A DNA stretch of 64,000 bases, taken from NCBI RefSeq assembly GCF_003315245.1, contig NZ_QNRT01000004.1, positions 186,001 through 250,000 of the forward strand. Direction: 5' to 3'. Each line of letters starts with the position of its first letter. The stretch's first letter is position 1. Below, one piece after another: positions 25,961 through 32,623 of the stretch. Origin of the DNA: Arenicella xantha. Lineage in GTDB: Bacteria > Pseudomonadota > Gammaproteobacteria > Arenicellales > Arenicellaceae. Made by a program: the position numbers and the translations under genes. The notes below the pieces were generated by a model. The model was not told the origin of the DNA, did no database searches, and worked only from the letters and a program-made list of their open reading frames with translations.

Positions 25961-26313
25961 AGTTATTATATTGACACTAAATAGAGTGATGCTTGAGGGG
26001 CGCTAATCTAAGTGAAGTAACTAACAATGCCAGCGGCTGAGCCAATGGCAATAAATGCTAGACAAAGTTACCACTTCAACTAAGCTGGGGCCGCCTACGG
26101 TAACGGTTTGAAGAACGGAATAACAACTTAGCACAACTGAAAGCGGTACTCTAACGGTTTATCAATTGCAATTTCACATTCAAGCACATACATTGTTTCA
26201 AAAATTTGACTATAAGCTTCAATAACAGAGGTTTGAGCTGTAAGATTCGTGCTGGAGAGTGCGCATGTTTTGGGGAGGCGTAAACTGATGATGAAACTTA
26301 CAAAGGAGAGAAT
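25961..26313. other. Intergenic region upstream of the signalling cluster
   Basis: This stretch of about 350 bases separates the divergent YjgR-like gene and the response regulator gene. I see no gene. It should contain the promoters of both. A good AAGGAG ribosome-binding site lies immediately before the regulator ATG. I could not identify a convincing -35/-10 pair or operator. Confidence 0.5.
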
Positions 26314-27003
26314 ATGCGTATAGTTATTCTAGAAGATGACCGTGATCAAGCCGATTTGCTGGTTGCATGGTTGCAAGAAGCGGGGCATCTATGTGATGTC
26401 TTTAACGATGGCAATGCGTTTATCCGGGCGTACTCAAAAGAAAGTTATGACTTGGTTTTGTTAGACTGGATGGTGCCTAGTTTATCTGGCATCGAGGTGC
26501 TACAGCATTTACGCAGCCAATTAGATCCTGTTGTGCCCGTGGTGTTTATTACGCAGCGCAACGCCGAGGAGGATATCGTTGAAGCCCTCGAAGCGGGCGC
26601 CGATGACTTTATGAGTAAGCCGGTCAGGCACAATGAGACCTTGGCGCGAGTTAATGCCATTGCTCGCCGTATGGGCTTTGGTGATGCTAATACTTCTGAC
26701 GACTATGATTTTCCGCCTTATAAAATTGATACTCGGTTACGGCAGGTGAGTAAGAATGCTGAACCGATCGAGTTGACGCAAAAGGAATACGAGCTGACGC
26801 TGTTCTTATTTAAGAATTTGGGGCGCGTAATCTCCCGTGGACACCTGCTCGAGTTGGTATGGGGTACTAGTTCCAAGCTGAATACGCGCACCGTAGATAC
26901 GCATGTAAGTCGGTTGCGCAGTAAGCTCGATTTGGATGCCGAGCCAACATGGCAGTTGACCTCTGTTTATCGACATGGGTATCGCTTAGAAAATACTCAG
27001 TAG
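26314..27003 (+). CDS. OmpR/PhoB-family response regulator
   Basis: DNA-binding response regulator of 229 residues. The receiver domain has the acidic pocket LEDDRDQ, phosphoacceptor Asp51 (LLDWMVPS), the conserved Thr80 (FITQR) and Lys102 (MSKPV). After a linker, a winged-helix trans_reg_C domain covers about 130-229 (LTQKEYELTLFLFKNLGRVI, then TRTVDTHVSRLRSKL). Translation begins after AAGGAG. It is the first of six same-strand genes that include a hybrid kinase and an HPt protein, so it is the probable output of that phosphorelay. Target genes are unknown; autoregulation is plausible. Confidence 0.93.
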   Translation: MRIVILEDDRDQADLLVAWLQEAGHLCDVFNDGNAFIRAYSKESYDLVLLDWMVPSLSGIEVLQHLRSQLDPVVPVVFITQRNAEEDIVEALEAGADDFMSKPVRHNETLARVNAIARRMGFGDANTSDDYDFPPYKIDTRLRQVSKNAEPIELTQKEYELTLFLFKNLGRVISRGHLLELVWGTSSKLNTRTVDTHVSRLRSKLDLDAEPTWQLTSVYRHGYRLENTQ

Positions 27004-27150
27004 CACGATATAGCTTGCGCTACACTTTGAGTTAAGCCACTTGTGATTCAATATTTGATAGAATCAACATAAACACGCATTTGCAATCGATTGCAATAAT
27101 GCGAGTCAGGTAAATAGGTAAGGTTTTGCCAGCAACGGCACGAGGTAGTG

Positions 27151-27690
27151 ATGTCAGAGAAAAAAAAACAAGTAAGCGCCGAGATTATTAGTCCTGGTTT
27201 GGGCGATATTGAAAAAGTCAGAGACATACTGTTTGGTAAGTATGTGAATAGCTTTGAGCAGCGCTTTGCTGATTTAGAAGCGCGTATGGAAGCCGATGTC
27301 GATGAGATGAAGCAACGGCTTACCGCTAAGATCTCCAAAATGGATAGCGCTGTTAATGAATCGTTAGCCAAACTAGATAAACAGATTCAGAGCGAGCAAT
27401 CTAGTCGAGATAGCGAATTAAAAGCGTTGCAATCTATGTTAAATGACGCTGAAGCGGCGCTTAAGCAATCGATTGGTATGATGGAAGATCAAGCTAATCA
27501 CGATCTTGCGGCAGTTCGTGCTTCCTTAGAAGAGAGTCATCAAGAGCTATTGGATCAGACGTCTCTAGTGCAAGCTCAGTTGGTATCGAGCTTGGAAAAG
27601 CAGAAAGAAGAGTTGCAGACCGACAAGGTAGGACGTCAAGCGCTGGCGCTTATGCTTGATGAGGTCGCCGTTAAGTTGCGCGGCAGTTAG
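27151..27690 (+). CDS. Soluble coiled-coil protein of the GTPase cluster
   Basis: A 180-residue acidic helical protein with no membrane segment. Residues about 15-35 (GLGDIEKVRDILFGKYVNSF) look like a conserved N-terminal motif, followed by continuous heptad repeats (RFADLEARMEADVDEMKQRL onward) to near the C-terminus. I recall similar short coiled-coil proteins next to roadblock/OmpA-type membrane proteins and Rab-like GTPases in other bacteria, but the function is not known. A GTG at 27148 directly precedes the ATG chosen. The next gene starts 25 bases after its stop. It may be a scaffold or adaptor of the membrane protein. Confidence 0.65.
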   Translation: MSEKKKQVSAEIISPGLGDIEKVRDILFGKYVNSFEQRFADLEARMEADVDEMKQRLTAKISKMDSAVNESLAKLDKQIQSEQSSRDSELKALQSMLNDAEAALKQSIGMMEDQANHDLAAVRASLEESHQELLDQTSLVQAQLVSSLEKQKEELQTDKVGRQALALMLDEVAVKLRGS

Positions 27691-27715
27691 CACTTAACTT
27701 GAAAAGTCCTTCAGC

Positions 27716-29227
27716 ATGAGCCAATTAGACGAACTGCGACAGATTATCGTCGGCGATAGTGCCGAGCAAATCGATCAGCTGAATCAACGACTCGATGATC
27801 TGGATAGGCGCACCAAAGATGTGGCTGAAGTGCTGGCGCCAGCGATTGACGCGGAGTTAGCGAACAACGGTCAAAATTTGGTACGCTCATTGCAGCGACC
27901 CGTGTCATTAGGTCTGAAACAGGCTATTCGAACCGAACCCAAAGCTTACGCTGAAATTTTGTATCCGGTTATGGCGCCGTCAATCCGACGGGCTATCGCG
28001 CAGGCCATATCGTCGATGATGGTCACCATTAATCGGACCATCGAGTCGGCTACGACCGTGCGCGGAGTTCGCATGCGGATGGAGTCGGTGCGTACCGGTG
28101 TGCCATATGCCGAATTGGCTTTGCGGCATTCATTGCTGTACCGAGTTGAGCATGTTTACTTGATTGATCGTGATTCAGGAATGTTGATCGATGAAGTGGC
28201 CTCGCATGATGCGCAAAGCTTGGACAGTGATGCAGTTAGTGCGATGTTTTCGGCGATTCAAAGCTTCGTGCAGGATTCGTTTGCCGGTGACGAGTCGGCA
28301 CGTCTGACCGATCTGAAAGTTGGTGAACATAATGTTTGGGTAGCGCATGGCCCTAGAGTGATGTTGGCCTGTGTGATTTTAGGTAGTGCGCCGGAAAGTT
28401 TGAAATCTGAGTTGTACGACACGTTGGACGGTATCCGCAGTGATTATGCCACTGCTATCGAAGATTTTACCGGTGATAATAGTGCTTTTGTCGGAGTTGA
28501 AGATCGATTGATGCCGCTGCTTCAATTGCAATTGAAGTCCGGTGAATCCGTGTCTAGCAAAGGCAACAGTGCGACGTTATTTATTGGTGTTCTTGCATTG
28601 CTAGCGCTGGGCTATTTGATTTGGATGTGGTTCGTAGACCAATCTAAGCTATCGACGGTAAATTACTACTTGAAGCAAACTCCCGGTGTGGTCGTTACAG
28701 ATAGCTATTGGCATGATGATCAGATTGTGGTGGAAGGCCTACGTGACCCAGATGCTTCGATTCCGTTTAGCACATTGGATGCGTATGATATTTCGCGCGA
28801 CCAAATAAAAATGCAAATGATTCCGTTTCGATCGCTTGAAACCGACATGGAGCTACAGCGGTTTCGTGAGCATTTTAATCTGCCGGTAAACGTGCAGTTT
28901 GATGTTGCGCAAGGCCAGATAACGCTGTCTGGTGAGGCGCCGATCGAATGGTTAAATCAGCATAGTGTACGACTCCAGCAGTTAGTTGCAGATCGGCGCT
29001 TGTCCACTGCAGGGCTTAGTGCCTCACTTGATTCGGTTGACGCTACTCTAGAACGACAGCTTAGCGCTGATCAGTTTGCCCAAATTGAGTTAAGTAAAGC
29101 TGTCGAAGCAGGGCAAAATGTTGTTCACGTTAGCACCAGGCTTGATACTAACGGCTTAGCCTTGGTCCAGTCTCTCTTCGCTGGCAGCCCTTGGGTTACT
29201 GTTAATGTCGCGCAGCCATCTCTTTGA
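27716..29227 (+). CDS. Membrane protein with roadblock/longin-like region and periplasmic BON-like repeats
   Basis: A 503-residue protein with three parts. Residues 1-120 are mostly helical. Residues about 128-250 alternate beta and alpha segments and look like a roadblock/longin domain: VEHVYLIDRDSGMLIDEV, VSAMFSAIQSFVQDSF, VGEHNVWVAHGPRVMLACVI. One membrane helix spans about 287-307 (LFIGVLALLALGYLIWMWFV). The periplasmic part has two BON-like segments, GVVVTDSYWHDDQIVVEGL and LPVNVQFDVAQGQITLSGEA. Roadblock proteins such as MglB act on small Ras-like GTPases, and a Rab-like GTPase is encoded 87 bases downstream. The domain call is by eye and must be tested by profile search. The likely role is a membrane-anchored GTPase regulator. 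Confidence 0.65.
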   Translation: MSQLDELRQIIVGDSAEQIDQLNQRLDDLDRRTKDVAEVLAPAIDAELANNGQNLVRSLQRPVSLGLKQAIRTEPKAYAEILYPVMAPSIRRAIAQAISSMMVTINRTIESATTVRGVRMRMESVRTGVPYAELALRHSLLYRVEHVYLIDRDSGMLIDEVASHDAQSLDSDAVSAMFSAIQSFVQDSFAGDESARLTDLKVGEHNVWVAHGPRVMLACVILGSAPESLKSELYDTLDGIRSDYATAIEDFTGDNSAFVGVEDRLMPLLQLQLKSGESVSSKGNSATLFIGVLALLALGYLIWMWFVDQSKLSTVNYYLKQTPGVVVTDSYWHDDQIVVEGLRDPDASIPFSTLDAYDISRDQIKMQMIPFRSLETDMELQRFREHFNLPVNVQFDVAQGQITLSGEAPIEWLNQHSVRLQQLVADRRLSTAGLSASLDSVDATLERQLSADQFAQIELSKAVEAGQNVVHVSTRLDTNGLALVQSLFAGSPWVTVNVAQPSL

Positions 29228-29314
29228 TTAGATGGTTGGTGTGGCTTGATGTTTTATGCTCGATGCGATCAATGATCTGATATTTAATTTCTTTTTCTTA
29301 CCGATAGTAGACCT

Positions 29315-29794
29315 ATGTCGAAACTAAAAATATGCATGGTTGGTGACTTTTCAGTCGGAAAAACCAGCTTGACGCAAAAATTTGTAAACAATGTGTTTTC
29401 GGAAAAGTATCTAACCACCATTGGCGTTAAGATTGACACTGCTTCGGTCGGAGATACCAAACTTATAGTATGGGATGTGGCCGGCAGAGATTCGCTTTCA
29501 CCAATAAACTCTAGTTATCTCGTCGGTGCTTCTGGAGTGGTGTTGGTGGGAGATGGTACTCGGCCACACACGATTGAAGACCTATTTGAGATTTGGCAGA
29601 CAGTGACCCGCAGAATCGGTGACGTGCCAGTGGTAGTAGCGCTAAATAAGGCGGATCTTGATGAGTGGCAGGTTGATGATGAGCTAACCGATACATTAGT
29701 TAATAATGGCTGGCAAGTATTTAACACCAGCGCAAAAGACGGCGCCAATGTGGCGGAATTATTTCAAACCTTGGTGGATGAGATCCAGAACTAA
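29315..29794 (+). CDS. Rab-like small GTPase with non-canonical switch II
   Basis: A 159-residue single-domain Ras-superfamily GTPase with Rab-like sequence. G1 is GDFSVGKTS (residues 10-18), G2 is the Thr35 region of KYLTTIGVKID, G3 is WDVAGRD (53-59), G4 is NKAD, and G5 is TSAKDG. In canonical Ras/Rab proteins G3 reads WDTAGQE; here the catalytic Gln is Arg58, which predicts low intrinsic GTP hydrolysis or help from a partner. There is no C-terminal cysteine for lipidation, so membrane contact would need a partner such as the upstream roadblock-like protein. It sits between that protein and a hybrid histidine kinase starting nine bases after its stop. Confidence 0.9.
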   Translation: MSKLKICMVGDFSVGKTSLTQKFVNNVFSEKYLTTIGVKIDTASVGDTKLIVWDVAGRDSLSPINSSYLVGASGVVLVGDGTRPHTIEDLFEIWQTVTRRIGDVPVVVALNKADLDEWQVDDELTDTLVNNGWQVFNTSAKDGANVAELFQTLVDEIQN

Positions 29795-29803
29795 GCAAAA
29801 TTT

Positions 29804-31369
29804 ATGCACAGTAGTGACCATATAGATTCCACCTTGTTACCAACGATCAGCAAATTTGTGCTTGATCGTCAAGGTTTGGCGTATTTCTGTGTGAGTCATC
29901 AGGGCGTGGTTCAAGCGATGTCAGCAAACTTAATCGACTATGGGTTTGCCACTACCAAGGTTGGTGATCAAGTTGAAGATTCAATCGACTTTATGGTTGG
30001 TTTGGATTTGCAAAGCGAGTTGGAATTGCCATTGATTGCCAGTCCTTCCGGAATGCCTGTTACGGTTTGTCTAATACCCGACGAATCAAAGATGCTGGTG
30101 TTGGTTTCTGATGCAAGCCGAGTTGCGGCTGACCGTCAACAGCTGCAACAGCAGGCTAATGACAATGAACTATTGGTGTATCAACAGAATAAACTAATGG
30201 CTCAGTTGGAGCAGGCGCAGGCCGAGCTTAAACAAAAAAATAGCCAATTGAAGGAAGCTTCCAGACTGCAAACAAGCTTTATTTCAGGTGTGTCACATGA
30301 ATTTCGCACGCCGTTAACGTCGATTATCGGTTACACCGACCTATTGCAAAATAATGCGCATAAACACAACGACGTTGATGCTGACAATTATGTGGTTGCT
30401 GTGCAGCGCTCCAGTCGGCATTTATTGTCATTGGTGGAAAATTTATTAGATCATGGGAAATTGGATGCGGAAGAGTTAGTGATTCGGCCTAAGCCGACGC
30501 TTTTGACCGAAGTGTTCGATGATCTGCGGTTTATGTTGATGCCGTTGGCCGATGCCAAAGGCATTGAGCTCGCAATTTCTCAGCTAAACGATCTTCAGAC
30601 ATTATCTGTGGTTGTGGACGATAGCCGTCTTCGGCAGTGTCTAATTAATATCGTTGGTAATGCCGTTAAATTTACTGATCAAGGTAAAGTAGACGTGCAG
30701 GTTAGCTGGAAACACGATTGGCTGTCGGTTACGGTTCGCGATACTGGGCCTGGAATAGCCAAAGAGCACCTAGAAAAAGTACTACTACCATTTTGGCAGG
30801 GCGGGGATAGTGCCAAAGCGGGCACTGGGCTTGGTTTAACCATTACGTCTCGTTTGTTGGAGTTGATGGGCGGTGAGTTAACGATTGATTCGACGCTAGA
30901 GTTGGGGACTACTGTGAGCTTTGCATTGCCCGCGCCGCAAGCGCCAAGCCTTGCCAAACAGCAGCAGCAAGAGAACAGAGGTCTAGACGGTTTGCGTCTA
31001 TTGTTGGCGGAGGACGATCCCGATATCGCGCTACTTTTATGCTACTTGTTAGAAGAGAAAGGTGCACAAGTAGCGCATGTTGGTAATGGTGAGCTGGCTG
31101 TTTCGGCCGCTATGCGAGGCACTTTTGATTTGATTTTAATGGATATCCAAATGCCGATAATGACTGGGTACCAAGCGATAGAACAACTAAACAAGTTAGG
31201 CTACAACACGCCGATAGTGGTAATGAGTGCATCAAATATTGATGCCGATAGATCCACGGCTGAGACGCTTGGTTGTGCCGCATATTTATTGAAGCCAGTG
31301 GATATCAATGATATTGCGCTAGTGGTGGACCAAGTTTTAGCAGCACCTGATCACTCGGCTGAGAGCTAA
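29804..31369 (+). CDS. Soluble hybrid histidine kinase
   Basis: A 521-residue kinase without membrane helices. Residues 1-110 form a small PAS-like sensor region, and 110-155 a coiled coil. HisKA has phosphoacceptor His165 (SGVSHEFRTPLTSIIGY). The HATPase domain shows N box NIVGNAVKFTDQG, G1 DTGPGIAKEHL and G2 GTGLGLTIT. The C-terminal receiver has acidic pair AEDD, Asp447 (LMDIQMP) and Lys497 (LLKPVD). It lacks an HPt domain, which the next gene supplies. It begins nine bases after the small-GTPase stop, so the two are very probably cotranscribed. Input could be a cytoplasmic ligand or contact with the GTPase. Confidence 0.93.
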   Translation: MHSSDHIDSTLLPTISKFVLDRQGLAYFCVSHQGVVQAMSANLIDYGFATTKVGDQVEDSIDFMVGLDLQSELELPLIASPSGMPVTVCLIPDESKMLVLVSDASRVAADRQQLQQQANDNELLVYQQNKLMAQLEQAQAELKQKNSQLKEASRLQTSFISGVSHEFRTPLTSIIGYTDLLQNNAHKHNDVDADNYVVAVQRSSRHLLSLVENLLDHGKLDAEELVIRPKPTLLTEVFDDLRFMLMPLADAKGIELAISQLNDLQTLSVVVDDSRLRQCLINIVGNAVKFTDQGKVDVQVSWKHDWLSVTVRDTGPGIAKEHLEKVLLPFWQGGDSAKAGTGLGLTITSRLLELMGGELTIDSTLELGTTVSFALPAPQAPSLAKQQQQENRGLDGLRLLLAEDDPDIALLLCYLLEEKGAQVAHVGNGELAVSAAMRGTFDLILMDIQMPIMTGYQAIEQLNKLGYNTPIVVMSASNIDADRSTAETLGCAAYLLKPVDINDIALVVDQVLAAPDHSAES

Positions 31370-31423
31370 TCGAATTATGCGTATTCTCACTTGCTCAAAA
31401 ATTAGTCCAAAATTGGGGTTATT

Positions 31424-31732
31424 ATGTCTGTAGAGTCGCCGACTATCGTTGCTTTAAAACAGCGTTATAAAGCAAGTTTGCCGGAGAAGATCGAAGAATT
31501 GGTGCTCCATATTGCTGCCTTGAATGCCGAAGGAGGTAATGGTCGGGAGAGCTTGCAAGAACTGCATGGCTTCTTGCATCGTCTCGCAGGTTCGACCGGC
31601 ATGTATGGTTATGATGATTTGTCGGCGTTATGTCAGTCAGGCATCAAATTTATCCAGCAAGAAGATCTAAATAATTTAGCGGCTGAATTGCAGCGGCTAC
31701 GCGAGATGCTCGAGCAATATGCTCAGGGTTAA
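31424..31732 (+). CDS. Histidine phosphotransfer (HPt) protein
   Basis: A 102-residue helical protein with the HPt signature: ELHGFLHRLAGSTGMYGYDDL, in which His52 followed by R-L-A-G is the phosphoacceptor (compare H-x-L-K-G). No other domain is present. It lies 54 bases after the hybrid kinase and completes a His-Asp-His-Asp chain with His165 and Asp447 of that kinase and Asp51 of the response regulator at the start of the cluster. Confidence 0.88.
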   Translation: MSVESPTIVALKQRYKASLPEKIEELVLHIAALNAEGGNGRESLQELHGFLHRLAGSTGMYGYDDLSALCQSGIKFIQQEDLNNLAAELQRLREMLEQYAQG

Positions 31733-31768: not shown

Positions 31769-32623
31769 ATGCGTTGGCGCGGAAGAAGGCAGAGTCGAAA
31801 TGTTGAGGATCGTCGCGGACAGAGCTTTGTTCGCAGTAAAAAGGGCGTTGGCGGTGGAGCGATGATATTGCTCGTATTGGCCGGCTTATTTTTTGGCGAA
31901 GATGTGCAAAAAATTCTATCACTATTCGTTGGTAATACTGGTAATCAAGCCACCACGCAACGTAGCGCTCGGCCAGATAGTTCGCAAGCAAATGACGAGG
32001 CCAAACAATTTGTCTCCGTTGTGTTGGCTGAAACGGAAGATACGTGGAGTGCTATTTTTGCCAGTGTTGGGCAACAATACCAGCCGCCAAAGCTGGTTTT
32101 GTATCAAGATCAAGTGCAGTCGGCTTGCGGTTTAGGGTCGGCGGCTTCAGGGCCGTTCTATTGCCCTGGTGATTATCAAATCTATATCGATCTGAGTTTT
32201 TTGAGTGAGTTACGTCGGATGGGAGCGCCCGGTGATTTTGCGTTTGCTTATGTGATCGCGCATGAGGTTGGCCACCATATCCAAAACCTAAGCGGAACCG
32301 CTGATCAGGTCCGGAAAATGCAGGCCAAAGCGAGCAAAGCGCAGGCTAATGCATTGTCTGTTCGCATGGAGTTGCAGGCAGATTGCTATGCTGGCATTTG
32401 GATCAATCGAACCGAAAAGCGTAATGCCATCCTTGAGGCTGGAGATATTCAAGAAGGCTTAGCCGCCGCTGCCGCAGTTGGTGATGATCGTATAATGCAG
32501 CAAGCCGGCATGGCGCCGCGTCGAGAAAATTTCACGCATGGTAGCTCCGAGGAGCGCATGCAGTGGTTTCAGCGTGGAATGCAGTCTGGTGATATTCAAG
32601 CGTGCCAAACCTTTGGGCAATAA
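31769..32623 (+). CDS. YpfJ-family zinc metallopeptidase
   Basis: Member of the neutral zinc metallopeptidase family represented by YpfJ. The 284-residue protein starts MRWRGRRQSRNVEDRRGQ, a typical family start, then has one membrane helix at about 28-45 and a periplasmic domain. The HExxH zinc site is AHEVGHH, with His165 and His169 as ligands and Glu166 as the base; LQADCYAGIW supplies the third ligand region. Cys120 and Cys132 (SACGLGSAASGPFYCPGD) probably form a disulfide. It follows the HPt gene by 36 bases on the same strand, but relation to the signalling cluster is uncertain because the family occurs in many contexts. Confidence 0.88.
   Translation: MRWRGRRQSRNVEDRRGQSFVRSKKGVGGGAMILLVLAGLFFGEDVQKILSLFVGNTGNQATTQRSARPDSSQANDEAKQFVSVVLAETEDTWSAIFASVGQQYQPPKLVLYQDQVQSACGLGSAASGPFYCPGDYQIYIDLSFLSELRRMGAPGDFAFAYVIAHEVGHHIQNLSGTADQVRKMQAKASKAQANALSVRMELQADCYAGIWINRTEKRNAILEAGDIQEGLAAAAAVGDDRIMQQAGMAPRRENFTHGSSEERMQWFQRGMQSGDIQACQTFGQ

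Follow-up and report, generated by a model that had tools for sequence, protein, structure and literature searches.

Group 1 Rup proteins are small GTPases that lack the glutamine of the G3 motif and whose genes adjoin a gene for a coiled-coil protein (Wuichet & Sogaard-Andersen, 2014; PMC4316618). The Rup sections of that paper also place in their neighbourhood a protein with an unknown domain, often with a transmembrane segment and OmpA, and an output protein, typically a diguanylate cyclase/phosphodiesterase or a histidine kinase, that bears an invariant N-terminal glutamine. A conservon-like complex and a link to two-component systems were proposed in the same sections, as was the idea that the missing glutamine is supplied in trans. 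No Rup protein had been characterised experimentally at that time (PMC4316618), and the later openly available papers that were found mention Rup, in their accessible parts, in passing only (among them PMC13015309 and PMC4915359). The present study concerns a six-gene cluster of this type in Arenicella xantha (GCF_003315245.1), located at positions 26314-31732 of the window, that is, of the whole 64,000-nucleotide stretch NZ_QNRT01000004.1:186,001-250,000 of the forward strand. All six open reading frames (ORFs) are on the + strand, at the positions that a first-pass annotation of this DNA had listed, and the Pfam families of four of them (regulator, GTPase, kinase and HPt) fit the products it had described; the intergenic gaps measure, in order, 144, 25, 87, 9 and 54 bases. 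The features are as follows.

26314-27003, +, OmpR/PhoB-type response regulator (RR; Pfam Response_reg and Trans_reg_C)
27148-27690, +, coiled-coil protein, encoded just before the membrane protein and part of the core set
27716-29227, +, putative inner-membrane protein with a helical N-terminus, longin-like domain, transmembrane helix and periplasmic part (membrane sides presumed)
28136-28537, +, longin-like domain, residues 141-274 of the membrane protein (predicted model)
28574-28636, +, transmembrane helix, residues 287-307 (hydropathy; model helix 285-321)
28688-29209, +, predicted periplasmic part, residues 325-498 (model elements)
29315-29794, +, Rab-like small GTPase of the Group 1 Rup type (Pfam Ras, 1.4e-26)
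29804-31369, +, soluble hybrid histidine kinase (PAS-like domain, QQ helix, HisKA, HATPase_c, Response_reg)
29879-30112, +, PAS-like domain of the kinase, residues 26-103 (AlphaFold2 model and fold lists)
30146-30151, +, Gln115-Gln116, near the start of the signalling helix of the kinase
31424-31732, +, stand-alone HPt protein (Pfam Hpt, 3.2e-9)

As in the Group 1 description, the window encodes a single-domain GTPase with intact G motifs and no G3 glutamine, a coiled-coil protein (its Pfam matches are of the coiled-coil type and all below the curated cut-offs), a protein with an N-terminal domain and a transmembrane helix, and an output with a glutamine pair, which is equated here with the glutamine of the 2014 paper. 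It differs in that the membrane protein lacks OmpA, a feature published as present 'often' only. The earlier suggestion that the whole system was undescribed is not supported, since the core of GTPase, coiled coil, membrane protein and kinase was already in print in 2014 (PMC4316618). The words 'longin', 'PAS', 'phosphotransfer' and 'OmpR' do not occur in the main text of that paper, and its Rup sections contain no HPt, no OmpR-type regulator and no cyclase or PP2C outputs of the kinds discussed below. No earlier mention of a longin or PAS identity, of outputs of the cyclase and PP2C types or of the extension by a regulator and an HPt protein was found in the open literature searched. The reading preferred here, for which we would give slightly better than even chances as a whole, is that an envelope-anchored longin platform acts on the Rup GTPase, the GTPase on the helix of the kinase, and the kinase on a flow of phosphate to HPt and regulator.

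Two further bacterial systems invite comparison. Conservons (CvnA-D) likewise encode a histidine kinase, a GTPase and a roadblock/longin-type protein together. In the window, however, the kinase is a soluble hybrid rather than a membrane kinase, the GTPase is Rab-like rather than MglA-type, the longin-like domain is part of a membrane protein, none of the six products matches a roadblock family, and HPt and regulator are both present, whereas conservons, as treated in the relevant part of PMC4316618, have no response regulator. The comparison with MglAB made in the first-pass annotation holds loosely: in Myxococcus and Thermus a small GTPase is also paired with a roadblock/longin-class regulator, but here longins top the structural list, Rabs are nearest to the GTPase (among the best 60 of 796 PDB sequences) and the six genes include neither MglB nor any other roadblock-family gene.

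The gene set is well conserved within the genus. The membrane protein was found in 16 of 18 same-genus genomes, that of A. xantha included, and 13 of the 16 carry the complete set, in unchanged order, on a single contig; in the remaining three a contig ends inside the cluster. The set is therefore kept beyond chance. All six genes are also found in G031, a genome from another family. For a wider view, 274 genomes spread evenly over the class were drawn, including the source genome and two further members of the genus, and the membrane-protein and GTPase searches are assumed from their shared handles to cover the same 274. The cut-off for counting (E<=1e-30) was picked after a gap between 1.2e-33 and 6e-14 had been seen, extra pieces of the same loci being ignored, and was then reused for the GTPase; at 1e-5 the full-length membrane profile matched 216 of the 274 genomes, mostly through weak matches to the OmpA end. 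At E<=1e-30, 23 genomes carry the membrane protein and 22 the GTPase, all 22 among the 23, and the GTPase is found at this level in none of the 251 genomes without the membrane protein. The conserved neighbourhood raised in the earlier annotation is thus borne out by the gene order in the genus and by this co-occurrence across the class.

A scan of named genomes yielded 195 confirmed relatives, the best 80 of which were kept as loci; these include Arenicella, Woeseiaceae, Beggiatoa relatives, Zetaproteobacteria, Acidobacteria, Variovorax and Desulfobacterales. Neighbouring genes were located by six-frame profile searches, with profiles iterated on the same loci. The GTPase is encoded downstream of the membrane-protein gene, on the same strand, in 73 of the 80 loci. 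Of the other seven loci, four break off no more than 1.9 kb from the domain, L113 encodes a GTPase on the opposite strand, and no GTPase was detected in the available locus sequence of L078 and L085. The coiled-coil gene lies upstream in 69 of the 72 loci that have at least 1.5 kb of upstream sequence. In the class draw, 19 of the 21 loci outside the genus have the GTPase downstream, the exceptions being L161, which breaks off after 1.6 kb, and L155, where none is found; setting aside two contigs shared with the 80, both with the GTPase, leaves 17 of 19. The counts for genus, named genomes and class draw share loci and are therefore not independent: the contigs of 15 of the 18 stretches L021-L038, and of two of the 21 stretches L149-L169, also appear among the 80 named loci. 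Sequences were aligned in six sets. Sets A2, A3, A4 and A5 each include the window sequence, in addition to 63 of 81 membrane-domain matches, 36 of 57 ORFs with an adaptor, all 63 adaptor matches and 57 of 63 GTPase matches, respectively; A1 has 12 rows, and A6 comprises 53 of the 64 A2 rows.

Absences, too, concern more than one gene. The Rup GTPase is absent from G015, G005, G019 and G020 (two of the same genus, two of the same family), which lack the membrane protein as well and have no close RR orthologue, the best match showing 32-34% identity; in G015 the GTPase profile has a match at 3.9e-6 inside a 922-amino-acid frame. The absences in G005 and G020 weigh less because these genomes are 82% and 88% complete. 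Membrane protein, GTPase and RR are all present in G004 and G018, the RR at 59% identity.

Several loci depart from the usual layout. Three Beggiatoa-type loci (L074, L083 and L116) have two membrane-protein genes each, and in L074 and L083 a stand-alone PAS-helix adaptor protein is also encoded beside one GTPase. L113 and L080 carry a Rup-type GTPase upstream of the coiled-coil gene on the opposite strand; L080 keeps a second GTPase downstream as usual and L113 does not. L168 and L169, from two genomes of one genus, contain divergent relatives of the membrane protein together with a GTPase and a kinase, with no coiled-coil gene or adaptor detected at the loci, and may represent another Rup subtype.

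The GTPase itself is Rab-like, as had been stated at the outset, with a Pfam Ras match of 1.4e-26; among the best 60 of 796 PDB sequences its profile fits best to Rab23, a Thorarchaeal Rab, Rab7 and other Rabs. P-loop, switch, NKxD and SAK motifs are recognisable in the window protein and in most relatives. The G3 motif reads WDVAGRD, with Arg58 in place of the glutamine of Ras and Rab, and none of the 58 aligned GTPase members has that glutamine. The G3 motif in L113 is altered to WDIAALEKF.

Pfam finds no family at E<=1 in the 27716 product, the only one of the six proteins with a strong hydrophobic segment (maximal 19-residue mean 2.29, peak residue 289, compared with at most 1.46 in the other five). 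Its AlphaFold2 model, built from 64 sequences, has a mean predicted local distance difference test score (pLDDT) of 86.7 and a predicted template modelling score of 0.49, and over residues 141-270 the 10-residue pLDDT means range from 76 to 96. Residues 140-268 are modelled in the order b-b-a-b-b-b-a-a, ending in two helices as in longins, with a short helix (131-139) directly before the first strand. The top VIA-align match is Sec22b (1ifq_B; Z 15.0, root-mean-square deviation 2.4, 124 residues aligned to a 128-residue chain), where by the scale supplied with the tool models without a clear match reach a best Z of 7 to 8; Ykt6, chains of Fuzzy-Inturned entries, SNARE, AP sigma, TRAPP and Mon1-Ccz1 chains follow. 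A longin fold for the cytoplasmic domain is therefore a good prediction, based on the model. Among eukaryotic longin platforms with exchange-factor activity for Rabs (Fuzzy-Inturned/Rab23, Mon1-Ccz1/Rab7 and TRAPP/Rab1), the resemblance is that a longin-like fold is encoded with a Rab-like GTPase, with Rab23 and Rab7 among the best matches of the GTPase profile; the window protein differs in spanning the membrane, in its periplasmic end and in that no second longin partner was identified. The likeness to longins is one of predicted fold.

Since longin and roadblock domains have a core fold in common, differing in whether a helix sits at the C- or the N-terminal side (PMC10933270, in the part concerned), the domain might alternatively be an MglB-like roadblock GTPase-activating protein (GAP) acting directly on the GTPase. 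Two MglB structures (3t1x and 1j3w) do occur in the Foldseek list, and Robl_LC7 matches three of 53 domain sequences (best E 0.035). Their target-normalised template modelling scores are 0.44 and 0.49, however, against 0.79 for Sec22b, which also leads VIA-align at its Z of 15.0 with no MglB among the best 50 rows, and the two helices stand at the C-terminal end as in longins; we consider the roadblock GAP unlikely. In the comparison of the domain sequences with 24,736 family models, the other best-represented family was Fuz_longin_1 (four of 53, best 2.8e-4). The roadblock/longin-like region of the first-pass annotation is consequently upheld by predicted structure, while support from sequence is weak in the family and lacking for the window protein. 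A roadblock identity by sequence finds no support in the window protein: Pfam Robl_LC7 matches neither it nor the locus in 23 genomes. Elsewhere in the source genome, two roadblock-family candidates of about 140 amino acids lie near the family cut-off (C2:682980-683162 and C3:10721-10906).

OmpA, without a match in the window membrane protein, is present in 44 of 64 aligned members, and BON in seven of 64 by Pfam. The repeated helix/strand units of the periplasmic part may be BON-like. Foldseek matches to the type III secretion ring proteins YscD, CdsD and PrgH are taken to fall in this part. The structural neighbours of the cytoplasmic domain include an entry of a complex of Fuzzy-Inturned and Rab23. 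Inturned-Fuzzy is, going by the title of one paper, reportedly the guanine nucleotide exchange factor (GEF) of Rab23. The parallel between a Rab23-like GTPase and a Fuzzy-Inturned-like domain is suggestive and no more.

The kinase, which has no strong hydrophobic segment, gives no Pfam PAS match in its N-terminal domain; the AlphaFold2 model of this domain has a pLDDT of 91.6, and PAS chains top both fold lists. According to the model the domain is a PAS fold that leads into a long helix, and Gln115-Gln116 lie close to the beginning of that helix. The pair is invariant in all 64 adaptor sequences, down to 15% identity to that of the window. In the source genome, with 20 HisKA loci in total, 12 kinases have a recognisable H-box, and the cluster kinase is the one that carries the QQ motif. 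In L098 and L108 this adaptor is fused to a guanylate/adenylate cyclase domain, and in L110 and L115 to SpoIIE (PP2C) phosphatases, as identified by Pfam. A second, similar-looking adaptor, outside the 64-sequence set, occurs on acidobacterial kinases and on HD_5 outputs (the second gene of L108, and L111); among nine such outputs inspected by eye (eight kinase/HD loci and a fragment in L080), eight have a single glutamine at the corresponding position, in Q-x-[AL]-R.

These swapped outputs bear on the direction of signalling. In the main rival to our reading, the kinase would sense a cytoplasmic signal through its PAS domain, and GTPase and membrane longin protein would be an output acting on the envelope. 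The kinase does have a PAS-like domain of its own, and the GTPase has been posited as the output in conservons (PMC4316618, in the part treating them). Yet GTPase and membrane protein are constant whereas the outputs vary between kinase, cyclase, PP2C and HD, as would suit a GTPase that acts ahead of an exchangeable output, and in the kinase variant a DNA-binding regulator and an HPt protein have been added. A reversed direction is thus regarded as rather unlikely.

All four phosphotransfer residues named in the first-pass annotation are in the expected motifs and Pfam domains: His165 (30296-30298, HisKA) and Asp447 (31142-31144, receiver) of the kinase, His52 of HPt (31577-31579) and Asp51 of the RR (in LLDWM, 26464-26466). 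The genome contains seven Hpt matches, and that of the cluster is the only short frame (108 amino acids, the others at least 612). Among 51 named loci with enough flanking sequence, 26 have RR and HPt, two HPt only, none RR only and 23 neither; these counts come from related species and are not independent events, and the HPt matches were checked by Pfam in the window and L062. Where both are present, the HPt gene precedes the membrane-protein gene in 14 of the 26 loci and follows it in 12. Content that is kept while the order changes argues for a working unit. An ordinary phosphorelay operon might still have come to lie beside an unrelated conserved pair of GTPase and membrane protein, and the 23 of 51 Rup loci missing RR and HPt speak for such chance proximity. 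We hold it to be very unlikely, as RR and HPt are gained and lost together with HPt on either side, and the glutamine-motif adaptor of the kinase recurs on the cyclases and phosphatases that take the kinase's position next to Rup.

The chain preferred here starts from the gene content, co-occurrence, motifs and predicted folds given above. The membrane protein would be anchored in the inner membrane, its periplasmic part possibly reporting the state of the envelope or cell wall. Its cytoplasmic domain, longin-like in the predicted fold, would be a docking platform at which, by analogy with longin Rab-GEFs, the nucleotide state of Rup may be set. Once GTP-bound, Rup would contact the invariant glutamine motif in the PAS-helix adaptor of the output, and this motif may also supply the catalytic glutamine missing from Rup; the supply in trans is the 2014 idea (PMC4316618, Rup sections), to which the present study adds the place and spread of the motif. 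In the genus, where the residues are present, the state of the GTPase would control a flow of phosphate from H165 to D447, to H52 of HPt and to D51 of the RR, and so transcription. In other lineages the QQ adaptor would couple Rup to a cyclase or PP2C phosphatase, and the second adaptor to kinases or HD (HD-GYP) enzymes.

A number of observations weigh against this reading. The sequence signal for a longin is weak: Fuz_longin_1 matches one and Robl_LC7 two of 64 full-length members, neither matches the window membrane protein, longin and roadblock family models miss the membrane-protein gene or locus in 23 whole genomes, and the domain profile found no longin among PDB sequences. A longin fold moreover does not show a GEF, GAP or other GTPase function, and longins of SNARE and adaptor proteins are listed too. 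The association with the GTPase has exceptions, in that G236 (L155) has the membrane protein and no detectable GTPase, and weaker GTPase matches (6e-28 to 1e-20) occur in four class genomes that are not among the 23. The invariance of the glutamine pair is partly built in, the collecting profile containing the pair, and the adaptor-like fragment of L080 has arginine in place of the glutamine. The phosphorelay, finally, is an add-on, because RR and HPt are missing from 23 of the 51 loci.

More broadly, though tentatively and with considerable doubt, Group 1 Rup might be a bacterial Rab-longin switch, in which a platform related by descent to the Fuzzy/Mon1 longins activates a Rab23/Rab7-like GTPase with interchangeable outputs reached through one glutamine-bearing PAS-helix adaptor. 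If so, Rab-longin control would exist in bacteria as transmembrane signalling, outside membrane traffic. A GTPase family that had no characterised member in 2014 would gain a mechanism, the unknown membrane domain would be a candidate longin regulator, and one adaptor would plug a Rab-like switch into kinases, cyclases or phosphatases. The trans-glutamine idea would become testable by a change of two residues.

Rfam and tRNA scans gave no matches, consensus promoters stayed below the shuffled expectation (seven found, 10.5 expected) and the terminator scan gave 10 with 6.5 expected. Footprinting found no invariant block upstream of the regulator. A promoter-like block there, TTGC...TACATTG (26164-26196), recurs in part of 14 genus sequences; it was missed by the consensus promoter scan. 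After the HPt gene, a gene on the same strand (31769-32623) is kept in place in the genus loci that reach that far. Its product resembles what we take to be a neutral zinc metallopeptidase, and it possibly belongs to the same operon or is a target of the cluster.

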